A model generated the notes under the pieces. That model ran no database searches. It was given only the letters and a program-made list of their open reading frames with translations, and was not told the origin of the DNA. A stretch of DNA of 64,000 bases. It comes from Acidimicrobiia bacterium (GTDB lineage Bacteria > Acidobacteriota > Terriglobia > Bryobacterales > Bryobacteraceae). The stretch lies in NCBI GenBank assembly GCA_016871315.1, contig VFZE01000002.1:62001-126000 (forward strand), given 5' to 3'. The number at the start of each line of letters is the position of its first letter. Within the stretch, counting starts at the first letter, position 1. The position numbers and the translations under genes are program-made. This document shows, piece by piece, positions 23,500 to 59,860 of this stretch.

Positions 23500-24366
23500 C
23501 TAACTCGCTCCCGCCGGGGCGCCCTTGCAAGCAGCTTCAAACTCCTTGAATGTGGGCCGCACCTCATGCGGCACGGCGCGCCGCGCGAACTCCGCCGAGA
23601 GAATCGGGGCGTTGCCGCGGATGTAGCTCATCACGCCGACGCGCAGCACGTTATAGTAAGCCCCCTCGGCGTCGACGATCTTAGTCATGTTGGAGGCCAG
23701 CGGACCAACTAGCCCGTAGCACATCAGAATGCCGAGGAAGGTCCCCACCAGCGCCGCAGCCACGTGATGGCCGATTTGCTCGGGCGGGCCGCCCAGCGAG
23801 CCCATCGTGATCACGACGCCGAGCACGGCGGCGACGATGCCAAGACCCGGCAGCGCGTCCGAGATGGTGTTGAGCGCGGTGGAAGGCTGCACCGCCTCAT
23901 GATGGTGCACTTCCATGTCAAGCTCCATCATCCGGTCCAGCTGAAACGGATCCACGCCGCCGCTGATCGACATGCGCAGCGTGTCGCAGACAAAATCCAC
24001 CGCGTGGTGATTGGCGAGAAAAGCCGGGAACTTGCTGAACACGTCGCTTTTCTCCGGTTCCTCCACATCGGCTTCCAGCTTCGTCGCTCCGTTCTTGCGC
24101 GCCGAAACGAACAGTGTGTTCAGCATCTTCAGGGTTTCCAGATAGAGATCCTTGTTGTAGCGGTTGCCCTTGAGGATTCCGATCAGCCCCGCGAACACGC
24201 CCTTGATCACATGCATCGGGTTGGCGACGAACAGCGTGCCGAATGCGGCTCCTCCGATGATGACCAACTCGGCCGGCTGGAACAGCACGGCGAGATTGCC
24301 GTGAGCCATCAAGTAGCCGCCGAGGACGGCGCCGAGCACAATGACGATTCCGATGATTGCGAACAT
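23500..24366 (-). CDS. motA: MotA flagellar stator protein
   Basis: 288 residues with four predicted membrane helices: 1-20, about 33-52, and the pair near 165-215 (SDALPGLGIVAAVLGVVITM, VAAALVGTFLGILMCYGLVG), separated by the long cytoplasmic loop that contacts the rotor. These are the hallmarks of MotA; PGLG is the conserved proline motif of helix 3. It is transcribed ahead of motB and has a sigma-28-like promoter upstream, so it is likely part of the late flagellar regulon. Confidence 0.95.
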   Translation of the reverse strand: MFAIIGIVIVLGAVLGGYLMAHGNLAVLFQPAELVIIGGAAFGTLFVANPMHVIKGVFAGLIGILKGNRYNKDLYLETLKMLNTLFVSARKNGATKLEADVEEPEKSDVFSKFPAFLANHHAVDFVCDTLRMSISGGVDPFQLDRMMELDMEVHHHEAVQPSTALNTISDALPGLGIVAAVLGVVITMGSLGGPPEQIGHHVAAALVGTFLGILMCYGLVGPLASNMTKIVDAEGAYYNVLRVGVMSYIRGNAPILSAEFARRAVPHEVRPTFKEFEAACKGAPAGAS

Positions 24367-50733: not shown

Positions 50734-52200
50734 ATGGAAAGTGAAAACATCCAGGCGCGCGGCGGCCAGCCCGAAGAGGGCGACGCCTTTCAGCAGCTCC
50801 TCACCGACCTGCTGACTCAGTGGGACGAAGACCACGCTCAGCCCGTTGGCGCCGCCCAAGCCGGCGCCGCCGATGGATCCGGCGAATTCGAGCCGGCCGC
50901 CGAGGTGGAAGATACCCTGGCCAGCCTCGCCGAGGCTGTCTACCACACCTCCCTCGATGAGCCGCAGGACCCCGTCTGCCAAGAGACTCCTCCAGTCGAT
51001 GGATCGGCCATTGCCGGGGTGGTCCTAGAAACCGCGGAGACTTTTGCCGCCGAACAGGAGCCCGTAGTCGAGGCCGCACACGAATCTCCGGCCGAAGAAT
51101 TCACCGTGCCGGAAGAGACCGCCGAGCCCGATCTATGGTCCGCCGCCATCTCCGAGTACCCGGCTTCCCCGCCGGCTCTGCCGGAATGGCAGACGGAGGA
51201 TCATGCCGAAACCGGCGGCTGCACGATTGAACCTCACCAAGGATTTAACTTCAGTCTTGACGCCTGGCTGGAGGAACCAACTCACCAGGCGCACTCCGGC
51301 GATCACGCGGGAGAAGAAACTCCGGCGGCAGAGGAGGAGATGTCTTCTGCGGAGGAGACCTTGCAAGCCGGCGATCCGGATGCCGGCCTGGATTTCCAGG
51401 CCGGCCAAGCCGGAGACCAGATCGCGGATCAAGCGGCGGAACCGTTCGCCGATTCCGGCCTTTGGGAAATGCTTCTTGCGCAGTCCGCCGAACAAGAGGA
51501 AGCCGAATCTGAGCCCGAGGCCGTCTGCCAAGAGCTGGACGAGGAACTGGAGCCGGTCGCCGCTTCCGAGCCGGAAATCGAACCGCAACTCGAACCCACG
51601 GCCATCTCCCCGCCGGCGCCAGAAGCTCCGGCCCCCGCGCGTGTTCGCGCACTTTCCGACAAGACCGAAGGTCTGCTCGAACTCATCCGCGCCATGTATG
51701 GCCGCATTCAGGAGCGCAAGTCCGACGTCGGCGTCGCCGGCAAGGACGGCTACGTCGTGGTCAAGGTCGGAGCCGGGATGTTCGGCCTGCCCATGCGCCG
51801 CGTCATGGAGACCGACAGGCTCCCGCGCATCACCCCGCTTCCGTTTGTGCCGGACTTCGTCCCCGGCGTCGCCAACCTCCGCGGCGAGGTTTTGCCGCTC
51901 ATCGATCTGCGGCTGCTGCTGGGCTTGGAGGCGGATAGCGATGGACGCATGGTCGTCGTGCGGCCAAAGGAAGGCGAAAGCCCCGCCGCCCTGCTTGTGG
52001 ATGGCTTGGGGGGCATCGCCTGGCTGGGCAGGTCCGAGTTGACTCGCGTCGAGCCGCAGCAGGCCCCGGAACAGGAAGATGCTCTGCAACTGGAGCAATT
52101 GGTTTCCGCTGTCGGGCAACACCGCAGCAGGGAACTCGGAATTCTCGATTTGGAACGGCTCTTTGCGAGCAAGGAGCTCACGGAGTTACGCAACGTTTAA
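50734..52200 (+). CDS. CheW-domain protein with long acidic N-terminal extension
   Basis: 488 residues. Only the last 150 (about 338-487) are a CheW domain: YVVVKVGAGMFGLPMRRVME, GVANLRGEVLPLIDLRLLLG. The preceding 330 residues are low-complexity, very acidic (Glu/Ala/Gln/Pro), presumably disordered, and unlike the 170-residue PilI. It should couple the receptor to the CheA-like kinase. Starts 10 bp after the response regulator. Confidence 0.88.
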   Translation: MESENIQARGGQPEEGDAFQQLLTDLLTQWDEDHAQPVGAAQAGAADGSGEFEPAAEVEDTLASLAEAVYHTSLDEPQDPVCQETPPVDGSAIAGVVLETAETFAAEQEPVVEAAHESPAEEFTVPEETAEPDLWSAAISEYPASPPALPEWQTEDHAETGGCTIEPHQGFNFSLDAWLEEPTHQAHSGDHAGEETPAAEEEMSSAEETLQAGDPDAGLDFQAGQAGDQIADQAAEPFADSGLWEMLLAQSAEQEEAESEPEAVCQELDEELEPVAASEPEIEPQLEPTAISPPAPEAPAPARVRALSDKTEGLLELIRAMYGRIQERKSDVGVAGKDGYVVVKVGAGMFGLPMRRVMETDRLPRITPLPFVPDFVPGVANLRGEVLPLIDLRLLLGLEADSDGRMVVVRPKEGESPAALLVDGLGGIAWLGRSELTRVEPQQAPEQEDALQLEQLVSAVGQHRSRELGILDLERLFASKELTELRNV

Positions 52201-52304
52201 TGCCGGGCCTTTGGCGCACGGAAAGTTTGAGGGCATGCAGTGACGGCCTCTCTCGGGAGGAGCGGCCGGGAAAAATGAACCGTTTTGTGGAGGGATGAAG
52301 TCGT

Positions 52305-54485
52305 ATGTTTAAGCTGAGAATTTGGCATAAGTTGAGCTTGATCGCCCTTTTGATGGGCGTCCCGGTGGTGGCCCTGGTCTACCTGTTCGTGCAGTCTCAG
52401 AACCGCCAGATCGACACCACCAAGAATGAGCTGGCTGGTTTGGAATACCTGCAGCAGGTAAGAAACCTGCTCCAGAACGTCCCTCACCACCGCGCTGCGG
52501 CCGCCGCCGTCATCGGCGGGGACAACAGCTGGCGCGAGGAGCTGGAAAAACTGCGCAGCCAGATCGATCTCAACGTCAAGGCCGTCGAGGAAGTCGAGAA
52601 GAAGTACGGCGTCGCCTGGCGCACGGGCGAATCGTGGCTCCGCATCAAGAACGAATGGAACGCCGTCCGCGAAGGCGCGCTCAACCTCGACGCCCGCACC
52701 AGCATGGAGGCCCACAACAAGGTCATGACTGACCTGCTCGGCCACGTCCAGCTGGTCGGTGAGCGTTCTCAGCTCCGTACCGACTTCGAACTGGCCACCT
52801 TCTATCTCGCCGACAGTCTCGTCAACACCCTCGGCTGGTCCAGTGAACACGTCGGCCAACTGCTCGCTCTTGGTACCGGCGTCTCCACCAAGCAGAAGGC
52901 CAGCCCCGAAGAACTCGCCCAGCTCACCTACCTCACCCGCCAGATTCAGACCGCCGGTGAGCAATCCCGCCGCAACCTCCAGGCCGCCATCCGCTACAAT
53001 CCGCGCGTCGCCTCGGAGATCTCCGCGGTCATGAACACCGCCGTCGACGCCGCCAACGTCTTCAGCCGCTATGCCAATGAGCAGTTCCTGAAGGGCTCCG
53101 GCAGCGCCTACGACGTCCGCGCATACATGGAGCAGGGCAGGGAGTCGCTCCACCAGTACTTCCGCCTCTATGACCTCACCGCCACCACGCTGTCCGATCA
53201 GTTGAGCCGCCGCGTCGCCTCTCTGCAGGAGGAAACCTGGAAGCAGCTCCTTCTCGCCGGCGTCGTCCTCCTGCTCGCCGCCGCCGCCGTCTTCCTCGTC
53301 TCCAGCGGCATCGCCACCCAGGTCAACGCCATCCAGAACACATTCACAGAAGTGCGCAGCGGCAATTTCGGCGCCCGCATCGACATCCGCTCCCGCGACG
53401 ACCTCGGCGAAATGGCCCGCTCCATTAACGAGACCTTCGACAACACCCTCGCCCTGATTCAAAGCAAGGACGAGCGGGACCAGATTCAGGCCAACATTCA
53501 GAAGCTGCTCGAGGAAGTCAGCGGCGTCGCCGAAGGAGACCTCAGCAAGGAAGCCGAAGTCACCGCCGACGTCACCGGTGCCATCGCCGACTCGTTCAAC
53601 TACATGATCGCCCAGCTCCGCCAGATCATCAGCTCCGTGCAGAAGACCACCCGCGAGGTCACCTCCTCGGCCCAGCAGGTTCAGGCCACCGCCGAATCGC
53701 TCGCCCAGGGCAGCCAGGCCCAGTCGGTCCAGATCGGGGAAGCTTCCCACGCCATCGGTGAAATGGCACAGTCGATTCAGCAGGTCGCCACCACCGCCAA
53801 CTCCGCCGCCGTCGTCGCCGAGCAGGCTCTGTTCAGCGCGCAGCAAGGCTCGCAATCGGTGAACAAGACCATCGAGGGTATGAACTCCATCCGCGGCACC
53901 GTGCAGGAAACCTCCAAGCGTATCAAGCGGCTGGGCGAAAGCTCGCAGGAGATCGGCGAAATCGTGCAGCTCATCTCAGACATCGCTGACCGCACCTCCA
54001 TTCTCGCCCTCAATGCCTCCATTCAGGCCTCCATGGCCGGCGAGGCCGGAAAGGGCTTCGCCGTCGTCGCCGAGGAAGTCGAACGCCTCGCCGAACAGGC
54101 CGCCGAATCCACCCGCCGCATCACCGGCATCATCAAGTCGGTGCAGGGCGACACCAACGAAGCCATTTCGGCCATGGAAGAAACCACCCGCGAAGTGGTC
54201 GCAGGTTCGCAGCTGGCCAACGAAGCCGGTCTCCGCCTGTCCCAGATCATGGACGTCTCCAAGCGCATTTCCGAACTCGTCCGCACCATTTCGGCAACCG
54301 CCAAACAGCAGGCCGAAGGTTCCGAGTTTGTTTCGCGGAACGTGACCGGCATCTCCTCGGTGACCCAGCTCACCGCCGAAGGCGCCCAGCAGGCGGCCGA
54401 GAGGATTCGCCGCCTCACCTCGCTTGCCAACGAGCTCAACGACTCGGTCAGCCGGTTCAAGCTGCCCCAGCGGGCGGCGGCGTAA
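52305..54485 (+). CDS. Methyl-accepting chemotaxis protein (PilJ-like)
   Basis: 726 residues: membrane helix near 11-29, a periplasmic or type-IV-pilus-sensing helical domain to about 315, second helix near 320-340, HAMP (about 340-395), a second HAMP-like segment, and the signalling domain (about 470-720) with the conserved hairpin tip DRTSILALNASIQASMAGEA. Heavy Ala/Gln/Glu heptads flank the tip. Its signal input domain does not resemble known ligand-binding folds by eye. Confidence 0.92.
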   Translation: MFKLRIWHKLSLIALLMGVPVVALVYLFVQSQNRQIDTTKNELAGLEYLQQVRNLLQNVPHHRAAAAAVIGGDNSWREELEKLRSQIDLNVKAVEEVEKKYGVAWRTGESWLRIKNEWNAVREGALNLDARTSMEAHNKVMTDLLGHVQLVGERSQLRTDFELATFYLADSLVNTLGWSSEHVGQLLALGTGVSTKQKASPEELAQLTYLTRQIQTAGEQSRRNLQAAIRYNPRVASEISAVMNTAVDAANVFSRYANEQFLKGSGSAYDVRAYMEQGRESLHQYFRLYDLTATTLSDQLSRRVASLQEETWKQLLLAGVVLLLAAAAVFLVSSGIATQVNAIQNTFTEVRSGNFGARIDIRSRDDLGEMARSINETFDNTLALIQSKDERDQIQANIQKLLEEVSGVAEGDLSKEAEVTADVTGAIADSFNYMIAQLRQIISSVQKTTREVTSSAQQVQATAESLAQGSQAQSVQIGEASHAIGEMAQSIQQVATTANSAAVVAEQALFSAQQGSQSVNKTIEGMNSIRGTVQETSKRIKRLGESSQEIGEIVQLISDIADRTSILALNASIQASMAGEAGKGFAVVAEEVERLAEQAAESTRRITGIIKSVQGDTNEAISAMEETTREVVAGSQLANEAGLRLSQIMDVSKRISELVRTISATAKQQAEGSEFVSRNVTGISSVTQLTAEGAQQAAERIRRLTSLANELNDSVSRFKLPQRAAA

Positions 54486-54538
54486 GCTTCAGCCAGGTTC
54501 GGAGCGGCCACCGCCGCTCCGCATCCGAGGAGAGGGAA

Positions 54539-57208
54539 ATGGCAAACTCTGTCGCCAATGAAGTCCTGGGCAGCTTCCTCGCCGAAGCGCGCTCCAACCT
54601 TCCCGCCATGCGGAAATGTTTGCAGGCCTTGGCCGCCAACTGCTCTGACCGGGAAGCTCTCGAGGAATTGCACCGGCTCGCGCACAATGTCCGCGGCGCC
54701 AGCAACATCATCGGCATGCCCGAAATCGGCCAGCTCGCCGAAGGTCTCGAAGATCTCCTCCGCCAGATCTCCGAGGGGCTTATCCCCCTGGACGCCGAAC
54801 TGGTCGAGCTGATGGGCCAAGGTCTCGATCACATCGAATCCATGTTGGACAGCACGGCCGCCCCGGCTCCGCTCGTCTCGGAAGCGAAATCCGCCGGTTC
54901 CCCGGCCGATGACCTCGCCGGCGAGCTCGTCGACGGCTTCCTGGTCGAGGCTGACGAACATCTGCATCTCATCTCGCCCTGGCTCCGCGAACTCGAACAG
55001 AATCCCGGCAAGAAGCCGCTCGTTCAGGACATCCGCCGCAGCGTCCATACCATCAAGGGCGCCGCCGCCATGGTCGGCCTCCCGGCCATCAGCAAGCTCG
55101 CCCACCGGATGGAGGACTTGCTCGATCACCTCTACGAGGACACCATCGCCTACAACGCCGATTGCCAGCGTCTGCTCTACGGCGCTTCCGACTTGCTGGC
55201 CGAGCTCGTTTCCGCCCGCGGCCAAAGTGAACGCCACCAGCCTGCTCTCGATACCATCTACACCGAATATCAGGCGGTGCTCTCGGCCGCCTCTGGCGAA
55301 GCCCACGAAACCGGGGACGCGATTGCGGAAACCGTTCCCGTCGAAGCCGCCGCTACGCAGGAGTTGGCCCCCGATGCGGCCCGCACCGTGCGTGTGCCCA
55401 TTGAGCAACTTGATCAGCTCATGCGTCTGGTCGGCGAGTTGTTCGTGCAGCACTCCTTCTTTGAACGCCAGCTTTCCTTTTGCAATCGCGAAGTTGACGA
55501 GCTTGGCCTCAGCCAGGAGCGGCTCAAGCGCATCAGCTCCACCATGGAAGTCGAGCAGGTCAACTGGCTCCCCGGCACCATGCAATCCACCGGCGCTGCC
55601 GCTTCCGGCGGACGTGAGGAATTCGACGCCCTCGAATTCGACCGCTACACCCAACTGCACTTGGTCACGCGCGACCTCTCGGAAACCGGAAGCGACTTGA
55701 ATTCCGCCGGCGCGCAATTGCGGGACCTTCTGCGCGGTTTCAACGGATACGTCACCCAGCAGGAACGTCTCACCAGTGAAATCCAGGACAAGCTCATGCG
55801 CCTCCGCATGGTGCCCCTCTCCTCGCTCGCCAATCGTCTCGAGCGTACCGTCCGCGTCACCGCCTCCAGAACCGGCAAAATGGCTGAGATTTTCCTGCAC
55901 GGCTTGTCCACCGAACTCGACAAGAAAGTCATCGAGGAACTCGCCGGTCCGCTGGAGCACCTGCTGCGCAACGCCGTGGATCATGGTATTGAAGATCCCG
56001 CGGCGCGTGTGCAGGCCGGCAAATCCGCCTCCGGCCGCATCACCCTCCGTGCTTCCCAGGAAGGTACCGACGTCGTCATCCGCTTGTCCGATGACGGCGC
56101 CGGATTGAATGAGGAAAAACTCCGCCGCGAGGCCGTCGGGCAGGGTTACGCCACCGACCCGGCCGACCTCTCCTGGGACCAGTTGATGAACTTTGTCTTC
56201 GAGCCAGGTTTCAGCACCGCCGGCCAGATTTCGGAGATCTCCGGACGAGGCGTCGGCCTCGACGTCGTCAAGACCAAGGTCGAGTCCCTCAAGGGCTCGG
56301 TTTCCATGGAATCGGTCGCTGGAGAAGGCGTCACCTTCACGCTCCGGCTGCCGATGACGCTCGCCATCACCAAAGTCCTCCTTGTGGAAGCTTACCAGCA
56401 GACCGTTGCCCTGCCGGTTCAGTCCGTGCTGCAGGCCGCCCGCTTGTTGCCCGCCGAACTCCAACCGGACGGCGATCACTACTCCGCCATCATCGGTTCG
56501 CGAAGCATCCAGGTAATGGACCTTGCCAGGGTCTTCGGGTTGCGTCATGAGGCCGTAACCTATACCGAACGCGTTCCGGTCGTCGTAGTGCGGGCCGGCG
56601 AACGCGATTTCGGACTCATCGTCGACGGGATTCTGGAGGCGCGCGAGGTGGCGGTTCAGCCGCTCACCAGCGTGCTGCGCCGCCTCCAGGCCGTCGCCGG
56701 CACCACCATTCTCGGCGATGGGAGCGTCGTGCTCATCCTTAACCCCGCCCAGCTTCATGGCGAGCATCAGGTCGCCACGCCCATCCGCCGTCAGGCCGCC
56801 ACCTTCCGCAAGGCGCTCAACGTCCTCATCGTCGACGATTCGCTCAGTGTACGCCGCGTCGTCGCCAACCTCATTCGCAACACCGGCTGGCATCCGTTCC
56901 AGGCCAAGGACGGCGTCGAGGCGCTCGAGATCCTCGGTCAGGGAGACTTCCGTCCCGATGCCATCCTGCTCGACGTCGAGATGCCTCGCATGGACGGCTT
57001 CGAGCTCACCGAACGCCTGCGCGAGCGCGCCGAGTTCGAACATACCCCGATCATCATGCTCACCTCGCGCGCCGGCGAAAAGCACCGCAACCGCGGCTTC
57101 CAATCCGGTGTCAACGAGTACCTCGTCAAGCCTTATCAGGACGAAGTCCTGCTGGCTACCATCCGCCGCCACGTCGCCCAAAGCCGCGACGCTTCGCAGG
57201 TCGCCTGA
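54539..57208 (+). CDS. CheA-like hybrid kinase with two Hpt domains (ChpA/PilL type)
   Basis: 889 residues: Hpt1 (LAHNVRGASN, His near 48), Hpt2 (SVHTIKGAAAM, His near 169), dimerisation segment (about 280-430), HATPase (NAVDHGIEDP, DDGAGLNEEKL, GRGVGLDVVK), CheW domain (about 600-735) and a C-terminal receiver with VLIVDDSLSVRRVV and DAILLDVEMPRMDG. The multi-Hpt plus C-terminal receiver plan is that of ChpA/PilL, the kinase of Pil-Chp systems. The five genes receiver, receiver, CheW, MCP, CheA match pilG-H-I-J-chpA order. No CheB/CheR homologue is in the window. Confidence 0.93.
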   Translation: MANSVANEVLGSFLAEARSNLPAMRKCLQALAANCSDREALEELHRLAHNVRGASNIIGMPEIGQLAEGLEDLLRQISEGLIPLDAELVELMGQGLDHIESMLDSTAAPAPLVSEAKSAGSPADDLAGELVDGFLVEADEHLHLISPWLRELEQNPGKKPLVQDIRRSVHTIKGAAAMVGLPAISKLAHRMEDLLDHLYEDTIAYNADCQRLLYGASDLLAELVSARGQSERHQPALDTIYTEYQAVLSAASGEAHETGDAIAETVPVEAAATQELAPDAARTVRVPIEQLDQLMRLVGELFVQHSFFERQLSFCNREVDELGLSQERLKRISSTMEVEQVNWLPGTMQSTGAAASGGREEFDALEFDRYTQLHLVTRDLSETGSDLNSAGAQLRDLLRGFNGYVTQQERLTSEIQDKLMRLRMVPLSSLANRLERTVRVTASRTGKMAEIFLHGLSTELDKKVIEELAGPLEHLLRNAVDHGIEDPAARVQAGKSASGRITLRASQEGTDVVIRLSDDGAGLNEEKLRREAVGQGYATDPADLSWDQLMNFVFEPGFSTAGQISEISGRGVGLDVVKTKVESLKGSVSMESVAGEGVTFTLRLPMTLAITKVLLVEAYQQTVALPVQSVLQAARLLPAELQPDGDHYSAIIGSRSIQVMDLARVFGLRHEAVTYTERVPVVVVRAGERDFGLIVDGILEAREVAVQPLTSVLRRLQAVAGTTILGDGSVVLILNPAQLHGEHQVATPIRRQAATFRKALNVLIVDDSLSVRRVVANLIRNTGWHPFQAKDGVEALEILGQGDFRPDAILLDVEMPRMDGFELTERLRERAEFEHTPIIMLTSRAGEKHRNRGFQSGVNEYLVKPYQDEVLLATIRRHVAQSRDASQVA

Positions 57209-57303: not shown

Positions 57304-58605
57304 TTATTCAGGAATAGCTGACGCCTTCACGCCCTCGGGCGTGAACTCATACCGGATCACCCACCGCCCGGGCGCCGCCGGCGTGAACTTCCATTGCCGG
57401 GAGGACCGTTCCGCCAGCCCCGCGAAATACCGGCTCGGTCCCGCCGACTGTATCCGCGAAGCGCTCACGTTGCCCGCCTCATCCACCTCTACTCTTATGC
57501 TCACCCGCACGCTCCCGTTGATCGTGTTCAGCACCTCTCCCGGCACATCCGGCAGCCCTTGACTCATCACCGCTCCCCGCGGCGGCGGATCAACCTTCCT
57601 CTTCACCTGCTCCTCATTTTGTGGGGCAAGCTTCAGCTTGCGCGAGGCTTCAGCCTCGCTGCTCTTCGGCTCCACCTTCGCTTTCACAACCACTGGTGGC
57701 GGAGGCTCCGGCTCTGGCTTAGGAGCCGGAGGCGGTGCCACCGGAGCCGCCACTGGTGCAGCTTGCGGAACCGCCACCGGCACGGGAGCCTGCGCCGCCA
57801 CCGGCTCCGGATCCTTCGCCGGCTCCATGAACCGCGGCCAAACCACAACTGCCGCCAGCACCGCCGCTCCCGCCACCCCTGCCATCAAATACCGCGACCG
57901 CTTCGCCTTCACCGGCGCAGCCAGTCCGAGCCGCGACCGGATCTGCTCCACCGTACCCCGGCTCCGCGGATCTTCGTGCAAACACCGCCGCGTGATCTCC
58001 TCCCATTCCCCCTCCGGCTGCCGGCCCAGCGCAGACACGATCACACGCCCCAGCGACCACAAATCCCCGCTTACCGAGCATTTCCCTTCCGGCGCTCCGT
58101 ACGCATCCCGCTCCAAAGCCGCCCCGAACTCCTGCGCCCCGTCGCAGCTGATCTTCAACACCTCACCCACCGACACAATATTCGACGGCCGCAGCTCCGC
58201 ATGCCCCAATCCCTTCCCATGCAGATAATCAAGCCCTGCCAGGCACGGCCCGATCAGCGCCTTTACTTCGTCCCCCGTCAGGCACCGTTCCCGCAGCACG
58301 TCCCCCAGCACTTCCTCGGCGTACTCCATCGTGACGTACACCACATCGCTTTCCGCCGCCTTCCCTCGTCCCGCATCAAACACCCGCACCACGTGCGGAT
58401 GCGACAGCCGCGCCCGTTCCTTCCACCTCTGCAACAACGTATACGCGGTCCCCGCCTCCGCCGCCATCAGCTTGATCGCCGCCCGCCTCTGCCCGCTTTC
58501 CCGCGTCGTCAAATACACGGCCGAGCGCTCCGTCGCGCCCAGCAGACGCACCAACGGATACGCATCAATCGCGGTTCCTTCCAGCTCTTGCCAAATTACA
58601 CTCAT
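57304..58605 (-). CDS. Pseudokinase-TonB fusion protein
   Basis: 433 residues. Residues 1-230 have a Ser/Thr protein kinase fold: the ATP-Lys is kept (AAIK, K45), and APE (171-173), but the glycine loop is absent (LGATERSA), the HRD motif reads HAEL (Asp to Glu) and DFG reads CDG (154-156), so the Mg-binding Asp is lost; catalysis is unlikely. A membrane helix (240-257), a Pro/Ala/Val-rich linker and a TonB C-terminal domain (about 345-433: [21 protein letters not shown]) follow. This places the kinase-like part in the cytoplasm and TonB end in the periplasm, like RodZ or TonB scaffolds. The linker holds an in-frame palindromic repeat. Convergent to the chemosensory operon. Confidence 0.85.
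57626..57659. repeat. Tandem palindromic (REP-like) repeat inside coding sequence
   Basis: Two adjacent palindromes, GCAAGCT-TC-AGCTTGC (57626-57641) and GCGAGGCT-TC-AGCCTCGC (57642-57659), preceded by GTGGG. Both have identical TC centres. In the fusion gene they encode [14 protein letters not shown] in the TonB linker without breaking the frame. Confidence 0.7.
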
Positions 58606-58646: not shown

Positions 58647-59120
58647 ATGCTCGTCATTCTGGGTGAACGCCTCGGCCCTTACGAACTGCTCGAAGAAATC
58701 GGCGAAGGCGGCATGGGCGAAGTCTGGAAGGCCCGCGACACGCGCCTCGACCGCATTATCGCCATCAAGCGCTCGAACCAGGGTCGCGGCGGCGCCTGGA
58801 ATCGGGACGGCGTCATCCTGTTTGCTGACCCGATTATGCCTTCGAGGAAAGTCTTCGCTTCCGGCGGACCCGTTTCCGACGTCACCCTCTTCGATGCCGA
58901 GGCCGGCGACCAGGCGCACTATTATCCGCAGTTCCTGCCCGGCGGCCGCCGTTTCCTGTATCTGGCCCGCAGTCAGAACGCCGAACGCCGGGGTCTGTAC
59001 AGCGGCTCCATCGACGACCCCCCGGCGAAGAACCGGGAGACCGCATTCTTAACTGTATTCCCGGGATGTGCGAGACCTCTGGATATTGCCTCTCACGGGC
59101 GCTCCAAGCCTTTTCTTTAA
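58647..59120 (+). pseudogene. Broken Ser/Thr kinase-PD40 gene, 5' remnant
   Basis: The frame starts as a normal kinase ([37 protein letters not shown] with intact glycine loop) but about 40 residues in jumps to PD40 propeller sequence ([23 protein letters not shown] type). About 400 residues of kinase are missing, an internal deletion. After a frameshift near 59060 the downstream frame reads [15 protein letters not shown], the usual propeller continuation. Divergent from the pseudokinase-TonB gene. Confidence 0.75.
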
Positions 59121-59352
59121 ACAGGTCAGCCTGATCACGAGTCAGGCTGGCGGGTATTTCAAGGACCGTAGCCCCGCACTTCGCACGCTCTTCGACGCGT
59201 TTGTCGCTGCGCTTCAAACATTCGGCCCCGTGACGATCCTGCCGGAGAAGACGAGAATCGCTTTCCAGGTACGGATGTCGTTTGCCCAGCTCACGCCTCG
59301 TAACTGGCGGAGGCCTACGCGGTCGGAAACCAAGAGCACCTTCGTCCGCTAG
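59068..59352 (+). pseudogene. Fragment joining PD40 sequence to a DUF5655-like piece
   Basis: 94-residue frame: the first 17 residues continue the PD40 remnant, then SPALRTLFDAFVAALQTFGP, VTILPEKTRIAF and MSFAQLTPR match the DUF5655 pattern (a domain normally about 100 residues at the C-terminus of small proteins). The join near 59120 is probably a deletion scar. Not a functional gene. Confidence 0.55.
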
Positions 59353-59401
59353 AGCGCATGCGGACATCGCTCCCATCGCTGACCAACCCCGGGCGGGCCA
59401 C

Positions 59402-59860
59402 ATGAGGCTCGGCCACCGACTCGCCAGTATCCTGGCAATAGCCGCAGTCTGCGGCATATGCCGGACGCAGGCCCAAACCGTGGCTGGCGCGGCGAGTTCC
59501 GGCAGGATCGCTGTGGGCGTTCGGGAACCCGTTCCTCTCGATCGAACGCCCCTTGCGATCACGAACGTTTCTGTCATTCCGATGGACCAAGACGCCATCC
59601 TGGCTGGCCAGAACGTGGTGATCGAGGACGGATTCATAGTCGCCGTCGGGCCGGCCGCAAGTACCCCCGTTCCTGCCGGAATCCGTCGCCTGGATGGGAC
59701 CGGCCTCTTCCTAATGCCGGGCTTGATTGACGCCCACGTACATCTGCAGTACCAAGCTGACAGCGCCGCCAACCCGACGCTGCTCGGCTTGCATCTTGCC
59801 CACGGCGTCACGACCATCGTGAACCTGCTCGGGTTTCCTAAGGGGGCGGATCCTCGGTAG
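59402..59860 (+). pseudogene. Amidohydrolase gene, truncated after first metal motif
   Basis: 152 residues: signal peptide (MRLGHRLASILAIAAVCGIC), the N-terminal beta-sandwich (LAITNVSVIPMDQDAILAGQ, VVIEDGFIVAVGPA) and the first metal site PGLIDAHVHLQYQ, then a stop at ADPR. Amidohydrolases of this exported class have about 430 residues, so roughly two thirds, including the other metal ligands, is absent. Confidence 0.75.

Follow-up and report, generated by a model that had tools for sequence, protein, structure and literature searches.

A predicted transmembrane pseudokinase with exchangeable C-terminal heads in a class of acidobacteria

The gene at positions 57304 to 58605 (minus strand) of the window, the whole 64,000-nucleotide stretch of DNA, encodes a protein in which a kinase fold without the catalytic base is followed by one predicted membrane helix, a disordered linker and a small C-terminal head with the TonB fold. 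The same architecture recurs in a family of relatives in which a SPOR domain or, in one case, an RlpA-like DPBB domain takes the place of the TonB-type head, and several features of a Ton motor are missing. We consider the chances to be almost even that the family represents a transmembrane pseudokinase scaffold or sensor that is conserved in one acidobacterial class.

Protein layout and catalytic residues

The open reading frame is intact, with exactly the boundaries given above, and the features of the gene and its product are the following:

57304..58605, minus strand: gene for a pseudokinase, membrane helix and TonB C-terminal domain protein (433 amino acids, ATG start, TAA stop; relatives found)
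57919..58578, minus strand: pseudokinase domain, residues about 10-229 (Pfam Pkinase; AlphaFold2 pLDDT mostly 91-98; kinase fold at Z 22-23)
58516..58539, minus strand: degenerate glycine loop, residues 23-30, GATERSAV (sequence and relatives)
58471..58473, minus strand: beta-3 Lys45, kept (Lys in 149 and Arg in 33 of 203 members)
58423..58425, minus strand: Trp61, which phmmer aligns with a PknB Glu (174 of 203 members have Trp here)
58195..58203, minus strand: HAE, residues 135-137, where HRD is expected (Asp missing in 199 of 203 members)
58138..58146, minus strand: CDG, residues 154-156, where DFG is expected (Asp155 is one residue past the DFG Asp column)
57829..57894, minus strand: one predicted membrane helix, residues 238-259, preceded by KAKRSR (AlphaFold2 helix and hydrophobic segment)
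57571..57828, minus strand: Pro/Ala-rich disordered linker, residues 260-345 (pLDDT blocks of 43-65 over residues 261-340, and sequence)
57310..57570, minus strand: TonB C-terminal-type domain, residues 346-432 (fold match; Pfam and NCBIfam matches below threshold)

The window protein belongs to the protein kinase-like superfamily: Pfam Pkinase matches residues 18-194 at 57.1 bits (cut-off 31.7), and the solved chains that are nearest by sequence are PknI and PknB. The AlphaFold2 model, computed from the window protein aligned with 35 relatives, has a mean pLDDT of 84 and a pTM of 0.58, with a pLDDT of about 94 over the last 80 residues, and its kinase part matches solved kinases at Z 22-23 over about 215 residues (PknB 5u94: Z 22.4, rmsd 2.3, 217 residues). 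The basic KAKRSR flank of the membrane helix would mark its inner side.

Because Foldseek and VIA searches with the whole protein returned kinases only, the C-terminal head was folded separately (45 sequences, pLDDT 89.9). The best Foldseek match of the isolated head is the E. coli TonB C-terminal domain 1xx3 (E 4.4e-4); in VIA, FusB (Z 10.6, rmsd 2.3, 88 residues) stands level at the top with two TonB structures, 1xx3 (Z 10.5, rmsd 2.7, 87 residues) and Salmonella TonB (Z 10.0, rmsd 2.4, 87 residues). In profile searches, the head scores below the cut-off of Pfam TonB_C (18.7 bits, cut-off 24.6) and narrowly below that of TIGR01352 (26.6 versus 27.1 bits), and the window protein is not among the matches of a Pfam TonB_C search of its own genome; TonB_C was matched at E <= 0.01 by all 36 rows of an alignment of the window protein with 35 relatives that had been retrieved with a TonB-type query. 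The fusion of a kinase fold to a TonB C-terminal domain across a membrane, which an earlier note on this DNA had proposed, is thus borne out by the matches to PknB and 1xx3 and by the single predicted helix that joins the two parts.

In the kinase part of the window protein, the first Gly of the glycine loop is kept and the second and third are lost, AIK is kept, H-A-E replaces H-R-D, and C-D-G replaces D-F-G. Most of these changes recur across the 203 distinct members of the family that were compared. The beta-3 column holds Lys or Arg in 182 members, and the glycine loop is degenerate (94 members compared). The HRD Asp is present in just four members, with His (99) or Arg (68) in most of the others, and the DFG Asp column contains no Asp in any of the 203; in 188 of them, Asp stands at the position that follows. 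The PknB Glu that faces Trp61 is one that we take to be the alpha-C Glu. The activation segment is wholly or mostly missing in L007, L010, L117 and several SPOR-type members. The signature of the family can be summarized as Lys/Arg, Trp, H-x-[HR] and S-x-D.

What is secure in the case for a pseudokinase is that the HRD Asp, which is the catalytic base, is lost. The DFG motif is a different matter: the active-type kinases closest in score to the family (L240, L243 and L272) read K/Q-x-S-D, in the forms WKLSDG, WQISDG or WKISDFG, as against K-x-S-x-D in the family, so that the DFG Asp is perhaps displaced rather than lost, and Asp155 may be this very residue, shifted by a one-residue insertion. 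Accordingly, of the altered motifs described in the earlier note, the HRD part holds and the DFG part is open to a shift; the glycine loop, described there as missing, has lost its second and third Gly but retains the first. The changes are in any case no accident of one gene, given that they are seen through the 203 distinct members.

It seems improbable to us that the family consists of unusual active kinases, in which the displaced Asp155 would work with Lys45, and another residue would stand in for the HRD Asp, in phosphotransfer or in a different reaction such as AMPylation. His or Arg occupies the catalytic-base column in 167 of the 203 members, and the degenerate glycine loop, the Trp opposite the presumed alpha-C Glu and the missing activation segments argue in the same direction. 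What speaks for activity is the retention of the basic residue at position 45 and of Asp155, the motifs of the nearest active types, the four members with Asp at the HRD column and the precedent of DYD kinases, which are predicted to bind ATP, and of POMK, which does bind it, with rearranged charges (PMC12599244, in part). Under the definition in the same source, again in part, pseudokinases are those in which at least one of the beta-3 Lys, the HRD Asp and the DFG Asp is missing; on its sequence, the window protein qualifies through the missing HRD Asp, which is replaced by Glu. Under the preferred reading, that of a pseudokinase scaffold or sensor, the kinase fold of the family would perform no phosphotransfer; a point against this reading is that Asp155 together with the kept Lys45 could permit nucleotide binding or residual chemistry.

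Distribution of the family and its exchangeable heads

A search of the contigs of its own genome with the window protein alone yielded 16 stretches and no relative, and ten clear members came from a search of 61 related genomes. A kinase-domain model built from these ten (match threshold E <= 1e-30) gave matches in 152 of 399 genomes from the class and, in draws from three families of the class (set at a completeness of at least 90%, with part of the matches inspected), in 32 of 50, 80 of 150 and 51 of 150 genomes, tallies that are somewhat high for the class because at least two weak matches (L240 in genome G415 and L272 in genome G892) are active-type. The family is common in the class. In a phylum-wide draw, 32 of 396 genomes matched, 31 of them from the same class; the sole match outside it has both HRD and DFG and is active-type. 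Going by record titles and taxonomy, the class would be Terriglobia. A scan of named genomes gave 131 relatives, of which 80 were retained, 77 of them with acidobacterial titles. The other three, L137, L171 and L195, are titled Xanthobacteraceae, Gammaproteobacteria and Betaproteobacteria, respectively, and are likely to be mis-binned acidobacterial contigs.

The 203 distinct members, in which identical kinase domains are counted once, are acidobacterial (soil bacteria) almost throughout. They comprise 184 members that remained from 194 distinct hits after removal of eight active control kinases (L011, L013, L016, L017, L019, L020, L022 and L024) and of the active-type L240 and L243, and 19 that remained from 20 rows added later after removal of the active-type L272. 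In kinase-domain trees, both of them quick and with SH-aLRT support alone, the family forms one clade, with a support of 100 against nine active rows and of 99 with 15 active rows. The clade covers several families of the class, usually with one copy per genome, and open frames and conserved non-catalytic residues are found throughout the members examined. These observations already largely refute the reading of the family as decaying kinases without function, which would be compatible with the degenerate catalytic motifs and with the gene fragments that adjoin the window gene (58647-59120 and 59282-59860), and to which we attach next to no probability.

The C-terminal heads, typed with profiles made from the family itself (E <= 1e-3), are TonB-like in 133 of the 203 members, SPOR in 55, RlpA-like DPBB in one and none of these in 14; the ratio of 133 to 55 does not measure abundance because the query of the named-genome scan included the TonB-type head pattern. 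That scan contributed 53 of the 184 members, 52 of them TonB-type, and the remaining 131 consist of 79 TonB-type members, 40 SPOR-type members and 12 that are neither. The 14 members without a typed head are ten paralogue rows of one genus, three truncated or cut rows, and L257. One genus has additional paralogues (L213-L218 and L220-L222) that lack a TonB, SPOR or DPBB head, and some have long C-terminal parts; in a Pfam scan of two long ones, L213 and L214, these parts match no family.

Pfam SPOR was matched (E <= 0.05) by 30 of the 40 SPOR-type members scanned. SPOR domains bind denuded glycan strands, and a conserved glycan-binding Gln has been described in them (PMC6895207, in part); in the SPOR-type members, the corresponding residue (profile position 8) is Val or Ile in all 54 that are readable among the 55, a position that was mapped through the Pfam match of L009 on the assumption that the profile numbering in PMC6895207 is that of Pfam. 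Because this Gln is replaced, the usual wall ligand is not assured even for the SPOR head, and the ligand of the SPOR-type members may differ from the usual one. The third type of head is represented by a single protein (L274:3983-5413; DPBB_1, RlpA-like, E 6.4e-16); in Pfam, DPBB_1 is described as lytic transglycolase. Since TonB C-terminal, SPOR and DPBB domains are swapped on one pseudokinase, the task of the head appears to be contact with the envelope. For peptidoglycan binding by the TonB C-terminal domain, we found no usable literature source, and nothing here depends on it. Constancy of the TonB end among homologues, on which the reading in the earlier note depended, did not hold up, with 55 of the 203 members carrying SPOR, and one DPBB, in the same place.

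Members were typed in 117 genomes: the TonB form is present in 75 (seven of which also have headless paralogues), the SPOR form in 40 and nothing but truncated copies in two, and no genome combines the two main heads. Among 16 further genomes, with two copies or weak scores, one (G847) has both a TonB-type and a SPOR-type member, and another (G841) has a TonB-type copy and a SPOR-lineage copy whose frame stops before the head; these two genomes rule out strict exclusivity of the two forms. The heads cluster on the kinase-domain trees. The first tree implies two changes for SPOR and the wider tree five for SPOR and seven for all labels, with the well-supported branches requiring just one, so the SPOR form may have arisen once or several times.

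The swapping of heads also bears on the possibility that these proteins are wall-tethered division factors like FtsN, DamX or RlpA, the pseudokinase being merely an inner anchor at the divisome. The layout is indeed that of SPOR division proteins, and there are relatives that end in SPOR or DPBB. We nevertheless regard this alternative as unlikely: the window protein and 133 of the 203 members (a biased sample) have a TonB-like head instead of SPOR, the glycan-binding Gln of SPOR is missing, and, because the family model matches in only 152 of the 399 genomes of the class at E <= 1e-30, the protein is not an essential part of division there.

The Ton motor and the genome neighborhood

The YP motif of TonB is highly conserved (PMC13253070, in part), and TonB(H20A) is inactive (PMC11658791, in part). 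Among the 131 TonB-type members analyzed for these features, the Tyr of YP occurs in none of the 126 that are readable, the position being taken by Leu, Met, Val or another residue (LP in the window protein). A His lies within the most hydrophobic 21 residues in six of the 131, versus 17 of 40 SPOR-type members; the membrane helix of the window protein contains none.

Six of the seven TonB_C hits in the same genome were taken as controls and their sequences read by eye. YP is present in three of the six (L250, L253 and L254), and a helix His in three of the four with a clear helix (L251, L252 and L255), L250 being the exception. TonB_C and ExbD hits lie together on two contigs, C48 (with L250) and C7 (with L251). 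Of these ExbD-linked TonB-like proteins, L250 lacks the membrane His and L251 lacks YP, compared to the window protein that lacks both; because each of the two is also without one of the features, the case against a Ton function is suggestive only.

The genome encodes three ExbD proteins at two places and yields five MotA/ExbB-family hits. A search of this genome found no ExbD on the contig of the window, and a phmmer search with the three ExbD proteins found no ExbD-like open reading frame near 140 family loci (median locus length 11.7 kb). Within the window, one of the five MotA/ExbB-family hits, a weak one (43.8 bits), is located at 23683-23991 (minus strand), in a 299-amino-acid frame some 34 kb from the pseudokinase gene; its product is perhaps MotA.

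The earlier note had suggested that the fusion might set outer-membrane energization. In its full form, this would be a regulated Ton energizer, in which the pseudokinase senses the state of the cytoplasm and tunes an ExbB/ExbD-driven TonB that pulls on outer-membrane receptors. Such a function would account for the TonB fold of the head, with TonB structures among the best matches, and for the TonB-like layout of one helix and a Pro-rich linker; the genome does encode ExbD and MotA/ExbB-family proteins, and the examples of L250 and L251, next to ExbD, indicate that the lack of one feature is not excluding. Against it stand the counts for the YP Tyr and the membrane His, the lack of ExbD on the contig and near the 140 loci, and the replacement of the TonB domain by SPOR or DPBB in relatives. 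We consider this function quite unlikely, and the suggestion of the earlier note fares poorly in this respect: the TonB fold is present and the Ton motor probably is not.

TonB-type domains do occur in this genome on proteins other than plain TonB, as illustrated by L254 (positions 758-2359 of its locus), which combines a BlaR1-like M56 peptidase and a carboxypeptidase-regulatory-like domain with a TonB_C end that keeps YP.

No neighbor is conserved across the 140 family loci, with clustering reaching a maximum of 22 loci; under coarser clustering, the maximum is 25 loci for a real gene, and an antisense frame reaches 30. Named by eye, the most frequent neighbors look like a histidine kinase and a response regulator, both located downstream, and like a TrmH-like methyltransferase, each in a subset of the loci. 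Because there is no family-wide neighbor, no partner is indicated and nothing is drawn from the genomic context.

In the window itself, the pseudokinase gene is convergent with a chemosensory cluster at 50734-57208 (plus strand) that encodes a CheW-domain protein, an MCP and a CheA-response regulator hybrid. On its other side, a divergent open reading frame at 58647-59120 (plus strand) opens like the N-lobe of an active Ser/Thr kinase ([13 protein letters not shown]...AIK) and continues with other sequence; Pfam Pkinase matches it at 17.4 bits over 35 residues, and it seems to be what is left of an active kinase next to the pseudokinase. A further frame at 59282-59860 (plus strand) has a sub-threshold amidohydrolase match (15.9 bits) near its end and looks like a truncated amidohydrolase gene.

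Proposed mechanism and comparison with known systems

The architecture, the missing catalytic base, the exchange of heads and the absence of several Ton-motor features emerge from the computation. In the mechanism that we propose, the lack of activity, the membrane topology, the partner, the ligand and the direction of signaling would be as follows. The cytoplasmic kinase fold would transfer no phosphate and would serve instead as a docking surface, possibly gated by a nucleotide, for a cytoplasmic partner, candidates for which are an active Ser/Thr kinase and an envelope-synthesis or division protein. The membrane helix and the Pro-rich spacer would carry the small head towards the cell wall and the outer membrane, where the head, a TonB C-terminal domain here and a SPOR or RlpA-like DPBB domain in relatives, would bind a component of the envelope. 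The occupancy or location of the head would then be passed to the cytoplasmic partner or would recruit it. A scaffolding or ligand-sensing role, which the earlier note had likewise considered, is still the best guess.

In its most specific version, which we put forward tentatively and with more doubt than belief, the family would be a class-wide envelope-to-cytoplasm device of Gram-negative acidobacteria, in which the pseudokinase monitors the state of the wall or of the outer membrane by means of exchangeable heads. It would correspond to PASTA kinases and MviN elsewhere, and the TonB fold would act in it as an envelope-binding sensor head that makes no use of the Ton motor. Should the sensor reading be true, a Gram-negative group would couple kinase-fold signaling to the cell envelope, and TonB-type domains could act as sensor heads instead of as arms of a motor. 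The exchange of heads further predicts that different heads are interchangeable on one pseudokinase.

In a search of titles and abstracts, we found no description of this family, in line with the statement in the earlier note that no characterized example was known; most subscription papers lie outside the scope of that search, so an earlier mention is possible. The main text of a 2025 review of bacterial pseudokinase families (PMC12599244) does not contain the terms TonB, Acidobact, SPOR or periplasm, and the kinase and TonB passages of the Solibacter genome paper (PMC3174227) have nothing on this family. As a membrane-bound bacterial pseudokinase, the family is of a kind already known; the TonB C-terminal, SPOR and DPBB heads are a variant that we have not found described.

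The window protein shares with TonB the C-terminal fold, the single helix and the Pro-rich linker, and differs from it in the lack of the YP Tyr and of ExbD on the contig and in the 230-residue pseudokinase that precedes the helix; among TonB-type members, the membrane His is also rare. The link to the SPOR proteins FtsN, DamX and RlpA is through relatives that end in SPOR or, in one case, in an RlpA-type DPBB domain; unlike these proteins, the family has a cytoplasmic pseudokinase, and the glycan-binding Gln is replaced. The BlaR1-like M56 protein L254 resembles the window protein as a signaling-type membrane protein with a TonB_C end, but has a peptidase domain in place of the pseudokinase and keeps YP.

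PASTA kinases consist of a cytoplasmic kinase fold, one membrane helix and an outer domain directed towards the wall. The window protein has the same succession of a kinase fold, a helix and an outer domain, and PknB is among the close solved folds. Unlike the window protein, PASTA Ser/Thr kinases have PASTA repeats and intact catalytic residues; no PASTA domain was found in the window protein with Pfam at E <= 1, and the match of the NCBIfam PASTA-kinase model is confined to its kinase part and far below the cut-off. PASTA kinases are active enzymes that sense fragments of the wall (PMC7286690, in part).

Among pseudokinases, those of the DYD type lack the alpha-C Glu, and an acidic residue near DFG may pair with the basic beta-3 residue (PMC12599244, in part). 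The acidobacterial family likewise lacks the presumed alpha-C Glu and has an acidic residue close to DFG. The DYD pseudokinases combine a beta-3 Arg with a DYD motif and come from actinobacteria and firmicutes (same source, in part), whereas the present family is acidobacterial and usually has a beta-3 Lys, as in the window protein with its Lys45 and CDG.

M. tuberculosis MviN, of the MviN/ActPs3 group, is likewise a membrane pseudokinase and regulates the wall via a partner: by recruiting FhaA, its pseudokinase domain keeps wall synthesis in check (PMC12599244, in part). As described there, the catalytic motifs of the MviN/ActPs3 pseudokinases, including the beta-3 Lys, are fully degraded and the group is mainly actinobacterial, and MviN itself has the motif VALT and a carbohydrate-binding domain, where the acidobacterial family retains a basic beta-3 residue (Lys or Arg) in 182 of 203 members and has a TonB C-terminal, SPOR or DPBB head. 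By analogy, MviN is the nearest mechanistic precedent for the acidobacterial pseudokinase family.
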